Shown: positions 56,588 through 63,732 of the stretch, one piece after another
How the letters are laid out: each line of letters starts with the position of its first letter
Position numbering within the stretch: position 1 is the stretch's first letter
Assembly: GCA_002189035.1 (NCBI GenBank)
Contig: NEEC01000012.1
Span: 1,984,001 to 2,048,000, forward strand
DNA length: 64,000 bases
DNA from: Utricularia gibba
Lineage: Eukaryota; Streptophyta; Magnoliopsida; Lamiales; Lentibulariaceae
Direction of reading: 5' to 3'
Position numbers and translations under genes: made by a program
Notes under the pieces: generated by a model
Seen by the model: only the letters and a program-made list of their open reading frames with translations
Database searches by the model: none
Told to the model about the DNA's origin: nothing

Positions 56588-58322
56588 ATGGTAGCTACAG
56601 CTGCAGCTTCGGCATTTCTGTCAGTACCTTCTCCATCTTCTGAGTTCTCTGGAAAAAATGGTGGGAACACCCATCAACTGTTGATGTTGGTGGAGTTAGG
56701 ATTAAATCGAAATCTGCATCTTCGGGAGGATACAGGTTAAAGCAAACGCTCAAACCTCTTCGAAAGTCAATGGGACTAAAGTTGGATTCTTGGATGCTAC
56801 AAGGATAGATGATGAGGGGATCGTTTCTCACCCTCCAAGGACATTTATTAACCAGTTGCCCGATTGGAGCATGCTTCTTGCTGCCATTACCACTATCTTT
56901 TTAGCTGCCGAGAAGCAATGGATGATGCTTGATTGGAAACCAAAGCGGGCTGACATGCTTGTTGATCCATTTGGTTTGGGGAGGATTGTGGAGGACGGTT
57001 CCATATTTTGCCAGAACTTCAGTATTAGATCATATGAAATTGGGGCGGATCGAACAGCTTCAATAGAGACGTTAATGAATCACTTGCAAGTATATCCACA
57101 TCTTTTTACTATCCCTGTTGATCCATTTGTTGTGCGGCTTTTTTCCCTGCTTGCGAATTGTTAATACTCATCTCCTTGTTTGCTGGTAAACGTGCTCACT
57201 CCTTTAGGAAACAGCTCTAAACCATGTAAAGAGTGCTGGACTACTTGCCAATGGCTTTGGTTCAACACCGGAGATGTGCAAGCGGAATTTGATTTGGGTT
57301 GTTTCAAAGATGCAGGTTCTTGTAGACCGCTACCCTCAATGGTAAACATCACTGAATGAAATGGTGTGGTATTCCACTGGACATTTCTATGGATTTGACA
57401 TTGATTCAATGGCTATACTTGTTATTTTTGAAGGGGTGACGTTGTTCAGATAGAAACCTGGGTTGCGGCAGCCGGTAAGAATGGAATGCGTCGAGATTGG
57501 CATATCCGAGACTGCAATACAGGCGATACATTACTTCGAGCTACGAGGTTTGGTATTATGAACACGTTGAGTAGCTCATTCTTGTGCTGTAGTTTCATGG
57601 TAGGAACTTACAGAAGTCTCTGATCACCTTTTTTTTTGTTGTCCCTTGGATTAATGTCAGTGTTTGGGTGATGATGAATAAAGAAACAAGAAAGTTATCT
57701 AAAATTCCTGATGAGGTTCGAGAAGAAATTTGTGATTATTTTGTTGATTCGCCTCCGATAGTTGCTGAAGATGTCAGGAAGCTTCCTAAGCTCGATGCTA
57801 GTAATGCAGATCACTCCCGCACTGGCTTAAAGGTAAGCTGCAACCTCTTTTCCTGAAATAATGCTGCATTGTTTCTTGGAATCATTCATTTTTTTTTTTT
57901 CACTTGTAGCCTCGCTGGAATGATTTGGACCTCAACCAGCATGTGAACAATGTGAAGTACATTGGTTGGATTCTTGAGGCAAGATTCTTGTATTCTATTT
58001 GCGTACTTGGAGAATCTGGTATTGCACATTATGATCCGCATCAAAGTTACGATTTTGTGGTTGTGCTGTGTGTGTTCAGAGTACTCCACCATCAATTCTG
58101 GAGAAGCATGAGTTGGCTGGCCTGACACTCGAGTACCGGAGGGAGTGTACTCGGAGCAGCACCGTGGAATCCCACACCTCCGTCATCAACAAGGACGACG
58201 GAAGCTCCCCTCCAGAATGCCAGCACCTGCTTCTCCTCGAAGGAGGTGGTGAAATCGTGAAGGGGCGGAGCATCTGGCGCTCCAAGCTCGTCGACAGGGC
58301 GATCACTACACCTCCGGAGTGA
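56588..58322 (+). CDS. FATB: Palmitoyl-acyl carrier protein thioesterase (FATB), plastid
   Basis: FATB releases mainly palmitate from acyl-ACP in the plastid stroma and so sets the supply of saturated fatty acids. Exons: 56588-57089, 57208-57341, 57434-57547, 57661-57832, 57910-57978, 58080-58322. The start MVATAAASAFLSVPSPSSEF is the classic FATB transit peptide. Conserved parts include NQLPDWSMLLAAITTIFLAA, DMLVDPFGLGRIVEDG, YEIGADRTASIETLMNHLQ, and the hot-dog active site with DLNQHVNNVKYIGWILE and the later Cys in PECQHLLLLEGG. Two bases are missing, near 56669-56673 and 56734-56737, both in the transit-peptide/linker region; with them the protein has 411 residues. The intron 57979-58079 has a GC donor (GAG/GCAAGA) instead of GT. 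Confidence 0.94.
57979..58079 (+). other. GC-AG intron of FATB
   Basis: The exon ends ATTCTTGAG and the intron begins GCAAGA; it ends TGTGTTCAG, and the next exon begins AGTACTCCA. Joining them gives WILE-STPPSIL, which fits the family (Ser after WILE). No GT nearby keeps the frame. Confidence 0.75.
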
Positions 58323-58682: not shown

Positions 58683-61600
58683 ATGCTGACGCTGCCTCGG
58701 CTATTAGTTTACTCATCGCCCTTCTCCTCCAACCCCTCGCTATTCAGCCTTTCCCACGTTAACCCAAAACTCTTTCGTCGATTAAGGTTCCTAAACGTCG
58801 CAGCTATGGCCGAGGAATTCGTCAAGGGAAATGTGCACCCTAATGGCGTCGCTATCATCACTCTCGATCGCCCTAAAGCCCTCAATGCTATGAATTTAGG
58901 TTGCTTTCGCCTATTTCCTTTCATTTCTCGTTGTTTTTGAAGTGGGTTTGGGGCGGCGTTTCCTTGATTGATTATTCAAGAGCTTGATGGGTTTTTTTGT
59001 TGTTTGTTGCAGAGATGGATTTGAAATACAAGGGATATCTTGATGAGTGGGAAGAGGATCCTAAGGTGAAATGTGTCTTGGTAGAAGGCAGTACGCCGCG
59101 TGCATTTTCTGCAGGTTGATATTTTAAGTCTTCTTTAGTTGGTTAATTTGATTATATAGTAACACATCTTTTGCAGTGACATTCATAAAAACTAATACCC
59201 ATCTATGTGCTTATCTTGATGTATAGCAGCACGCTTCGTTTTGGTGTTTTGTTTCTAGAACTAAAATTTCAGTATTTTGGTCTGGGTTTTGTTTGATTTT
59301 GGTTGAAACTGCAGTGCTCCATTGACACTGTCTTAAAGGGTGCTGAGGCCAAATATTATACATCATTTATGCAGGAATGGATATTAAAGGTGTTGTTGCA
59401 GAAATTCAAAGAGACAAATTTACTCCTCTTGTAACAAAGGTTTTCTTTTTGTACAAAACATATTTTTCATTGCTTGATTGACTCTGGCATTGTGTCTTGT
59501 AGTTGTTGGGAAAAAAATCGACTTGACTATGTTTTTGGATTTTAATTTGAAGCTACTTAAATTCATAAAGATGGTGTTGTGCAGAAACATTTTCCCAGGA
59601 TCTAGATTATCAGACTGCTAAGGTGTTTAGTTGTAAAATTCTGTGCAGGTGGTGATGTGAAGCAGATTACCAAAAGTAGTCAACTATCAGACATGATTAA
59701 GGTTTTGTAGTGTAGCAAACTAGCTTATATGTAGAGGTTTGTAGGGTGTTCAGCTGGTATGTGGAAAAAATCATAACCTAATTTCTTGAGTCTCTGCCTC
59801 TGGTTCAATGCTCTTTCAACTCCCTGACAAGCAGCTAAAAGTAAATTAGTGGCGCCTTCCTTCTTACCTTCTGCAACCAAAATCTGCATTGATTTAGTGT
59901 CTCTATTCGGCTATTAGGATCTTTGGATTCCTTAAAGCTAGGAGGTGTGCATGTGGGTAGTGTAATGTTCAGATAAAACCACACATAATGCTCTTCCTTA
60001 AACTGTTCATCTTACTGCCAAGTTTTTTTTGAAGCTGCTTTCTCTTACTTGTTGTTTTTGTAATTTCATTGACAGTAAAGGAGTTGGGTTGGCAAAATTA
60101 TCCATACATGTATTCATTGTGAATGCTATATACAGAAAGTTGCATCTATGTCTATGCACATGCTCCTTACTGAAAATTCATCCATGGAGCATTTCTTATT
60201 GTTCTTTGCAATTCCAGGTATTTTCTGCAGAGTATTCTCTGATATGCAAAATATCTGAGTACAAAAAGCCTTACATCTCCTTCATGGATGGTATAACGAT
60301 GGGTTTTGGCATTGGTCTATCTGGTCATGGCCGCTACAGGGTCATAACAGAGGTACCTTCCTTGGATACTTTCTCTCATCAATGACTAGAAAAATATTTT
60401 ATCTGATACGTGATTACATCCAGAAAACAGTTCTTGCTATGCCAGAAAATGGCATAGGCTTGTTTCCAGATGTTGGTTTTGCACATATTGCAGCCAAAAG
60501 TCCTGGAGAAGGAGCAGTGGGTTAGTGACTGTGCATATAGTTCATCTTTCATTACTATAGGTTGTTGTCATTTAGCTCACTGATGATAGCAACGGATTGA
60601 TCCTAACAACCAGAGAAGACTTGAGAATTCCACATATCAGATTTGTTTCCTCTCTTCTTGATCCATTAGGGGCCTATCTTGGATTAACCGGGAATAGAGT
60701 ATCTACTCCAGCTGATGCTCTATATGCTGGTTTGGGATCACACTATGTACCTTCTGCGAGTCTAGCCATGCTAAGGGAAGACCTCCTGGCGACAACCTTG
60801 TAGGCTTCCTCTTCCTACATTTAACACTTGTTATGCTGTAATTTGAACACCCTTGTTCCTAGTGCTTGTAGAACCTTTGCTTCTCAGCATCATCTCTAAA
60901 AAAGTACTTTTGCAATCTGCAAAATTGGTTGTTCAGTCTTCATTCTATACTTGAAAAAAGCTATTCAGTTCACTTCACCTGCAGTTGTTGCTAATTTATC
61001 CAGCTTGTCCTTGTGTTTGATGCAGCTCTGAAGATCCAGATCACAATATCAGATTACTATTAGAAAGATACAGCAAGAATCCGGAGTCTGAGCCTCGGCT
61101 TAAACTGCTATTACCGCGAATAATTTCGACATTCGGAGGTAGCAGATCGATTCAGGAGGTGATCAAGGAGCTAGAAGATCATCAGCAAAGCGGTGATACA
61201 TTAGGTTCGCATCAACATCTTGTTGTCTCTTACCCCGGAAATCAAATATTCAACATTTCTGAATACCATCATCCTTGTATGCAGTGGCTGAATGGGCAAA
61301 AGATGCTCTGCAAGAACTCAAGAAAGGAGCGCCCTTATCTCTTTGCCTCACCCAGAAGCATTTCTCAAAAGTTGCATCTGCCCAAGGCAATGGTGGCAAT
61401 GAACTATCTGAGGTGAGCAGTGCCTGAAATTTGCATAAACACAGTGTTATCCATCTGCCTCTTCTATCATCATGCGTCCACCTTTTTTCACTTGAGTCTG
61501 TTTATACCAGCTACGTGGTGTGATGAAGGCAGAGTATCGCATCGCTTTGCGATCGTCTCTCCGAGACGATTTTGCAGAAGGTGTTCGAGCCGTCTTGGTC

Positions 61601-61915
61601 GACAAAGATCAGGTCAATTGTCTGGTATTACCGTCCTTGAACCTGTGCATGTGTGCTCGTGCATCTGTCTTTTAGCAACCAGTTTCTGTTCGGAATCCCA
61701 CCATCGGCTCTCAGTTTTCAGCCACACCGTTTTGCTTTTCTGCTTGAGTGTGTTTGGTTCTTCCGATGAACCAAACGAACATGCACTGATTCTTGTCAGC
61801 TGGTGGTCTGCAGAACCCGAGGTGGAGTCCGTCGAGCTTGGAGGAGGTGACTAATGGCGAAATTGAAGCTCTGTTTGAACCATTGAGCCCCGACATTGGA
61901 GAATTGAAGGTTTGA
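58683..61915 (+). CDS. 3-hydroxyisobutyryl-CoA hydrolase-like protein with two alternative third exons
   Basis: A crotonase-superfamily member related to CHY1 and to the plant HIBCH-like proteins. CHY1-type enzymes hydrolyse 3-hydroxyisobutyryl-CoA in valine breakdown; the role of the HIBCH-like branch is less certain. Exons: 58683-58899, 59013-59114, 59375-59439 (3a) or 59649-59701 (3b), 60218-60352, 60424-60520, 60670-60799, 61026-61204, 61285-61412, 61511-61612, 61814-61915. With 3a the protein has 418 residues, with 3b 414; both are frame-perfect. Motifs: [72 protein letters not shown]. The start [16 protein letters not shown] looks like an organellar presequence; a second ATG at 58806 ([10 protein letters not shown]) in good context could give a shorter form. 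It is convergent with the glucanase gene. Confidence 0.92.
59375..59439 (+). other. Alternative exon 3a of the hydrolase-like gene
   Basis: A 65-base exon bordered by ATGCAG and GTTTTC. After the shared first G it reads [20 protein letters not shown] plus TK. It enters in phase 1 and leaves in phase 0. From memory, this form resembles the one used by the Arabidopsis HIBCH-like gene At4g13360. Confidence 0.85.
59649..59701 (+). other. Alternative exon 3b of the hydrolase-like gene
   Basis: A 53-base exon bordered by CTGTGCAG and GTTTTG. After the shared first G it reads [18 protein letters not shown]. It has the same entry and exit phases as 3a. GGDV is the usual oxyanion-loop sequence of 3-hydroxyisobutyryl-CoA hydrolases. 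Using both exons together would shift the frame. Confidence 0.85.
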
Positions 61916-62192
61916 TCACGATGGCGTCCCGATGCTCTCCGTCCCTCCTTGATCGAACGGTATCACGATCCTCATCTTGTCTTGTTTCAATGAAAACTGG
62001 TAGCCTCTTTGTCGTGAATAAAAGGATGAGATCTCATGGCCGTCGTCCGAAGGCCGTGCTGCCTCCGAGAAATATCGACGATCCCAGGCGCACTCCGGCC
62101 TAGATCGATGGAGGCGCTCGGGGAAGACGACCCGCGACGCCGTGTCTGTTTTTGAAATTAGAAATTGGGGTATAAAAATTGAACGAGTGACG

Positions 62193-63732
62193 TTAGGATA
62201 CCAAAAGGAGAAAGACAATGCAACCTTCGGCGACGGCGAGCAGAATCCCGACGACTTTCCTCCTGAGAAGCAGGAGGGAGTGGTTGTCGGCGATCATCAC
62301 CGGAAAGACACATTTCTCATCGGAGGGATCCTCGTGGGTGATCCTCGCCAGGCCGGAGAAGTCGCAGTCCCATTCATTCTGACTCTTCATCTGATAGTAC
62401 ATGTTGAAAGCGTAGGAAGCATTCCCCTCGAGAGTCAGATGGTTGCACGATGATCCGAACCCTAGCGCTGTGCAGTCCGATTGGCTGCAGGCGAAATCGA
62501 TGTTCGCCGCAAGATCTCCGTCGACGTCCTCCGCTGCCGCCACCGTGGGTTTCAACACGCACCACCGTCGCACCATGTACTCCACGCCTTCCACCGCCAC
62601 GAGTGCTCCATTTCCGCCTAACAAATCCAGCTCGTACTTGGGTTTTCCGTCGAATTCGAAGATCCCCCAATGCCGTTCGAAGGATCCGGGTTCGATGCTC
62701 TTGGCGTTTTCGTCGAATAGGCTGAAGAGGTAGATTTCTAGTTCCCCCTTTCTTGCCGGCGTTCCTTGCGCCGCGGCTGCGTGGCGGATCAGCCCCTGGT
62801 TGAATCTCCTTGCGTTCTCGATATTCGCGTGCTCGTCGCCGTCGGTAGGCCACCCAACCTCCCCGACGATGATTTTCATATCCGGGAAGCCCGCCTTCGT
62901 CAGAGACCAAACCAGAGTGTCGAAATTCGCATCAAACACATTTGTGTATGTGCAACTTCCGTCTCTCAGGGGACGAGCTCCGCCATCGAAGAAAGCGAAG
63001 TCGACCGGAAAGTATGCATTCTGGTAGAGACTCAAGAACGGGTAGATATTAACGACGAAAGGGGCGTCGTTGGAATGGAGAAATTGGACAATCTGAACGG
63101 TTAAATCACGGATCTCCGGCCGGAAATCGCCGCCAGAAGGAACGGGATTCGATTCCGGCGAGTTGTAGATATCAGCGTTGAACGGAACGGTTGCTTTCAC
63201 CACCGATCCCAATCCTGCTCTGTTTAAAGCTCCTTGAATGTTCCTCAACGCCGGCAAAGTATGCTGTAGATAACTTCCGTTGTACGTTTTCAGAAACGGC
63301 TCATTCCCGACGGCGACGTACCTGAAAGAAACACCAAAATCCGATTCCGGTACCCACAAATTGAACGGTTTTCTTGATCGAAAAAACAACCACCCACCTG
63401 ATATCAACTCCCCCGGGATACGCATATGCGGTGACATTCGCGTCCACCCACTGCGCAGCGGCGCCGGCGTCGAGGCTCAGCTGACGCAGCATACAGTTAG
63501 GAACCGCCAACATAACTTCGATCCCACTCCCGGAAAGCGCTTCCAGAATCTTCCGATCAGCCTCGAAGAGCTTCACCCTCTTGAACCCGTTTTCTTTCAG
63601 CATATTCACCACGCTGTAAGGAGCTAAAGAGTGCTTAGCCATGGTACCCCAGTTGACGCCTATAGCGGCCGCGGCGGCCGGCGAATCCAGCGCCGCCGCG
63701 AAGAGCATCATCAGCAGCAGAAGCTCGTTCAT
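62193..63732 (-). CDS. Glucan endo-1,3-beta-glucosidase, GH17 with X8/CBM43 domain, probably GPI-anchored
   Basis: The enzyme would hydrolyse callose-type beta-1,3-glucan at the cell surface or wall. Two exons, 63732-63398 and 63321-62193, give 487 residues with no frame break. The start at 63732 is chosen because [20 protein letters not shown] is a signal peptide; the frame also opens further upstream at 63846 without one. The GH17 domain begins [20 protein letters not shown]. Its acid/base Glu is in [10 protein letters not shown], split by the intron, and its nucleophile Glu is in [16 protein letters not shown]. The X8 domain (WCVLKPT to EKCVFPV) has the six expected Cys. A hydrophobic C-terminal tail ([20 protein letters not shown]) fits a GPI signal. 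It converges on the hydrolase-like gene with 277 bases between the stops. Confidence 0.92.

Follow-up and report, generated by a model that had tools for sequence, protein, structure and literature searches.

Tandem, probably mutually exclusive exons in an HIBCH-like gene of Utricularia gibba and their predicted exchange of an oxyanion-hole residue

The window, that is, the whole stretch of 64,000 nucleotides of Utricularia gibba DNA analysed here, contains an HIBCH-like gene with two tandem alternative exons, 3a (65 nt) and 3b (53 nt), between its shared exons 2 and 4. We are confident that the best explanation of this arrangement, taken as a whole, is that the gene is the orthologue of Arabidopsis At3g24360, Medicago AC145449_47 and rice Os06g39344 and carries their known mutually exclusive pair, whose products are most likely two CoA-ester enzymes of differing substrate preference. 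The pair itself has been known, in kind and in detail, since 2008; the new elements proposed here are a reading of the swap in terms of the putative active site and one more lineage in which the pair is kept.

The gene model was obtained by spliced translation; on the forward strand it begins with the Met codon at 58683 and ends at a stop immediately ahead of 61917, with AG/GT at every border. The coding part of exon 1 (58683–58899) is followed by exon 2 (59013–59114), which ends in phase 1, with FSA and a single base of the codon for Gly107; the other two bases of this codon, in FSAG[M/G]D, come from the alternative segment. Exons 3a (59375–59439) and 3b (59649–59701) both enter at phase 1, exit at phase 0 and belong to the same splice-site class. 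Each starts with GxD[IV]K right after the shared FSA and runs into the shared VFSAEY, and each alone completes the frame, giving a protein of 418 residues with 3a and of 414 residues with 3b. A previous inspection of the same DNA, the sequence-only reading, had arrived at exactly these coordinates, exon lengths, borders, phases and protein lengths. The remaining exons are shared: exon 4 (60218–60352) contains the second oxyanion-hole region, exon 5 (60424–60520) the residues aligned with the HIBCH catalytic pair, and exons 6 (60670–60799), 7 (61026–61204) and 8 (61285–61412) lead to exon 9 (61511–61612), which carries the HIBCH C-terminal signature, and to the last coding exon, exon 10 (61814–61917), where the protein ends in ELKV. 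A second in-frame Met lies at 58806, 41 codons past the first one, and the N-terminus between them is basic and Ser-rich. This N-terminus is possibly a mitochondrial presequence, and the alternative starts at 58683 and 58806 could give rise to an organellar versus a cytosolic form. Upstream on the forward strand (57500–58322), the exons LKPRWNDLDLNQHVNNVKYIGWILE..., with a stop near 58322, form the end of a gene that, judged by its motif, looks like a plant acyl-ACP thioesterase gene of the FatA/FatB type. The downstream gene found in the list of open reading frames (62193–63731, reverse strand) is convergent and resembles a glucan endo-1,3-beta-glucosidase (GH17) with an X8-like Cys-rich part at its C-terminus.

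The lengths of the two exons are those of a published pair. In Medicago AC145449_47 a 65-nt Exon3 and a 53-nt Exon4 are mutually exclusive and lead to proteins of 418 and 414 amino acids, no isoform including both exons, and ESTs revealed the identical 65/53-nt pattern in Lotus LjTC_2465, Arabidopsis At3g24360 and rice LOC_Os06g39344 (Wang et al. 2008, PMC2277414). The identical exon lengths, order and protein lengths leave little doubt that the gene in the window shows this published event in a further lineage of angiosperms, and it is on exon lengths, protein lengths and pattern that the proposed orthology to At3g24360, rather than to another plant gene, rests. Thus, the tandem mutually exclusive exons postulated by the sequence-only reading are borne out both by the anatomy of the gene and by the published ESTs from four plants. 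Its statement that separate Arabidopsis paralogues use one form each was mistaken: At3g24360 splices both exons, while in At4g13360 the 65-nt exon is constitutive and the 53-nt exon was not found (PMC2277414). The suggestion built on it, that duplication may have replaced splicing in some lineages, finds no support here, the Arabidopsis duplicate coexisting with the splicing gene and the present genome having one copy of the subfamily. The same publication described conserved silent positions in both exons, which may be splicing signals, and noted a slight difference between the isoforms in the ECH domain, with the active site and the oxyanion-hole residue left unmentioned (PMC2277414). Knock-out of At3g24360 altered several metabolites, including oxylipins (PMC6314165).

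The lengths of 3a and 3b are both equal to 2 modulo 3, and therefore the inclusion of both exons shifts the frame to a TGA at 59658–59660, inside 3b, in agreement with the earlier claim that the two together break the frame. When both are skipped, the reading ends at a TGA within exon 4 (60256–60258). These premature stops are placed upstream of the last exon junction, at 812 nt (both exons in) and 730 nt (both out), and decay of the double-inclusion and double-skip mRNAs is thus to be expected. Such an arrangement would also suit a gene in which the alternative exons mainly set the amount of protein by way of decay-targeted mRNA, with two functionally equivalent loops; both wrong products stop more than 700 nt ahead of the last junction, and one Medicago EST without either exon has been reported (PMC2277414). 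We regard this control of protein amount as an unlikely main role, since two differing loops of exact lengths have been kept from rice to legumes and the residue changed at the oxyanion hole is invariant in the 80 bacterial relatives described below, both of which suggest selection on the protein sequence.

Between exons 2 and 4 there are 34 open, phase-compatible AG..GT segments of 20–149 nt, and splice borders together with frame are therefore weak evidence that a given segment is an exon. Each of the 34 segments was put into the full protein and scored against a profile derived from 80 bacterial relatives of HIBCH, which are a biased sample of the nearest ones, mostly alphaproteobacteria. 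The 53-nt exon 3b occupied the first rank (324.4 bits), followed by a 71-nt form of 3b with an upstream acceptor (319.3 bits), the 65-nt exon 3a (319.0 bits), which is the top segment without overlap to 3b, and a 56-nt form of 3a (317.8 bits). Segments overlapping neither exon reached 305.7 bits at most. As the top two independent fits among the 34, 3a and 3b are thus two real coding exons; this ranking rules out either of them as a chance pseudo-exon, and no third tandem copy was present among the candidate segments between exons 2 and 4. With their shared flanks, their GxD[IV]K start and the good family match of each, the two exons code for alternative forms of one protein segment. The similarity between their sequences is weak, being matched by 84 of 2000 protein shuffles and by 1314 of 2000 DNA shuffles, and it is therefore their position and motif that point to an old duplication.

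It could still be argued that this plant uses one exon only and that the other survives as a not yet decayed relic, given the weak donors of both (see below) and the precedent of At4g13360, which keeps only the 65-nt exon (PMC2277414). However, both exons are intact, open, phase-matched and of the published lengths, each of them outscores every unrelated segment in the family profile, and in a small genome (~100 Mb) one would expect erosion of an exon that is dead, all of which makes a relic highly improbable.

Both isoforms match ECH_2 along the full length (346.4 and 349.6 bits; cut-off 27.2) and exceed the cut-off of NCBIfam PRK05617, 3-hydroxyisobutyryl-CoA hydrolase (308.5 and 313.3 bits; cut-off 274); the best solved relative is human HIBCH (3bpt). 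The Glu and the Asp aligned with the HIBCH catalytic pair are kept in the plant protein and, lying in shared exon 5, are common to both isoforms; as in HIBCH, they would be the catalytic pair here. As family assignments, the ECH_2 and PRK05617 matches fall short of proving the substrate. ECH_2 also includes, beside enzymes, mitoribosomal proteins (mS47).

A search of the genome (100.1 Mb in 516 contigs) gave strong matches at this locus only, and no second copy of the subfamily was found in it; a split of the 3a and 3b forms between paralogues in this genome is accordingly rejected. The remaining ECH_2 genes resemble CHY1, HIBCH or a ribosomal protein and have GGD or GTD loops. Their frame runs uninterrupted into the loop, and the intron just before GxD was therefore not found at that place; it is this intron that made the tandem exon pair possible. 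One of these paralogues (L026, G000:C213:2763000-2768500) has Thr at the oxyanion-hole position (FCSGTDV) and resembles mitoribosomal mS47, which shows FCSGADV in the 9evs chain, so that it may belong to a ribosomal branch. Two loci on small contigs, L027 (C416:10500-16500) and L029 (C422:2500-8500), contain one and the same ECH_2 gene in opposite orientation, possibly as a haplotig or an assembly duplication; their match scores are equal and their loop sequences identical.

The NH donors of the oxyanion hole in rat ECH are Ala98 of loop-2, placed after Ala96-Gly97, and Gly141 (PMC13126182). The motif supports a correspondence of rat Ala96-Gly97-Ala98 with Ala106-Gly107-Met/Gly108 of the plant protein, and the assignment of the alternative segment to the oxyanion hole, made previously, is upheld by this match to the Ala98 loop (PMC13126182). 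Residue 108 is Met when 3a is used (GMD) and Gly when 3b is used (GGD). By this alignment the swap exchanges the predicted oxyanion-hole residue 108, and the putative catalytic Glu/Asp and the region of the second donor stay in shared exons. The donor in the crotonase DmdD is Leu71, whose side chain also lines the acyl pocket (PMC3660561), and we infer that Leu71 is equivalent to plant residue 108. GGD, with Gly at the place of residue 108, was seen in 80 of the 80 bacterial relatives, and the paralogues of this genome with a readable loop have Gly or Thr at the oxyanion-hole position. Judged from these sequences, Met at 108 is unusual within the HIBCH/ECH_2 family; other crotonases differ at this position, with Ala in rat ECH and, if the equivalence holds, Leu in DmdD.

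The loops differ in length as well. The spacing from GxD to EY is 28 residues in 3a and 24 in 3b (a difference of 4 residues), and in the 80 bacterial relatives it is 27 in 69, 26 in 10 and 24 in one. On this alignment neither exon simply equals the standard family loop, 3b combining Gly with a short spacing and 3a Met with a long one. The isoforms would thus most likely be a pair of CoA-ester enzymes that share the catalytic Glu/Asp and differ in the acyl pocket, and a different pocket would in turn imply a different substrate preference. A change of substrate or of reaction between them, from a hydrolase-like to a variant activity, is plausible.

In this plant the spliceosome would join exon 2 to 3a or to 3b, and then to exon 4, and the mis-spliced products, being non-coding, would probably be cleared by nonsense-mediated decay. 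The donors of 3a (AAG/GTTTTC) and 3b (AAG/GTTTTG) have 4/9 consensus matches each, which makes them the weakest in the gene (5–7 in the others). Exclusivity probably arises from the competition of these two weak, near-identical sites together with the frame-based removal of wrong products, which is the simplest account of it. A U12-type intron was rejected as the cause, no donor in the gene being of that type, and a steric block is unlikely, as the intron between 3a and 3b measures 209 nt and another intron of the gene 71 nt. An intron of 209 nt is long enough to splice, and therefore nothing steric forbids double inclusion, which is a point against exclusivity. Competing RNA structures between the introns, in the manner of the docking-selector pairing of Dscam, could also enforce the choice, and mutually exclusive exons in animals can work in this way (PMC6071210). 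We consider it highly improbable here: the intron pairs 2/3, 2/4 and 3/4 pair no better than shuffles, 14, 14 and 55 of 60 shuffles, respectively, reaching the duplex energy, in what is a weak test on one species.

Conserved mutually exclusive exons enforced by the reading frame have seldom been described in plants. A survey from 2014 stated that none had been described for Arabidopsis (PMC3923563), despite the Arabidopsis pair having been in print since 2008 (PMC2277414). In Arabidopsis proteome data, 11 mutually exclusive events have peptide support (PMC13136898); At3g24360 is not mentioned by name in the main text of that paper. If the chemistry of the isoforms differs, the gene would be an example, rare in plants, of splicing that alters the active site of an enzyme and not just its amount. 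As a tentative extension, which we hold with less than even confidence, flowering plants may have kept this splicing switch since before the monocot-eudicot split, exchanging the oxyanion-hole residue and the acyl-pocket loop so that one gene yields two enzymes that differ in specificity for substrate or reaction, with the switch under the control of tissue or condition.

Compared with known systems, the plant gene has in common with the Dscam type of animals the use of tandem homologous exons, one at a time, but it differs in having two copies only and in showing no sign of docking-selector pairing. With human HIBCH (3bpt) and PRK05617 its protein shares homology over the whole length and the Glu and Asp of the catalytic pair; these, however, have a single loop (GGDIR), whereas the 3a isoform has Met there. 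At4g13360, a paralogue in the closest homologue group, has the 65-nt exon in common with the present gene but lacks the 53-nt exon. Finally, the pair of Medicago, Lotus, At3g24360 and rice was established with ESTs (PMC2277414), whereas that of Utricularia gibba is known here from genomic sequence alone; the exon order and the 65/53-nt lengths are the same, and the 418 and 414 residues of the two proteins are those reported for Medicago.
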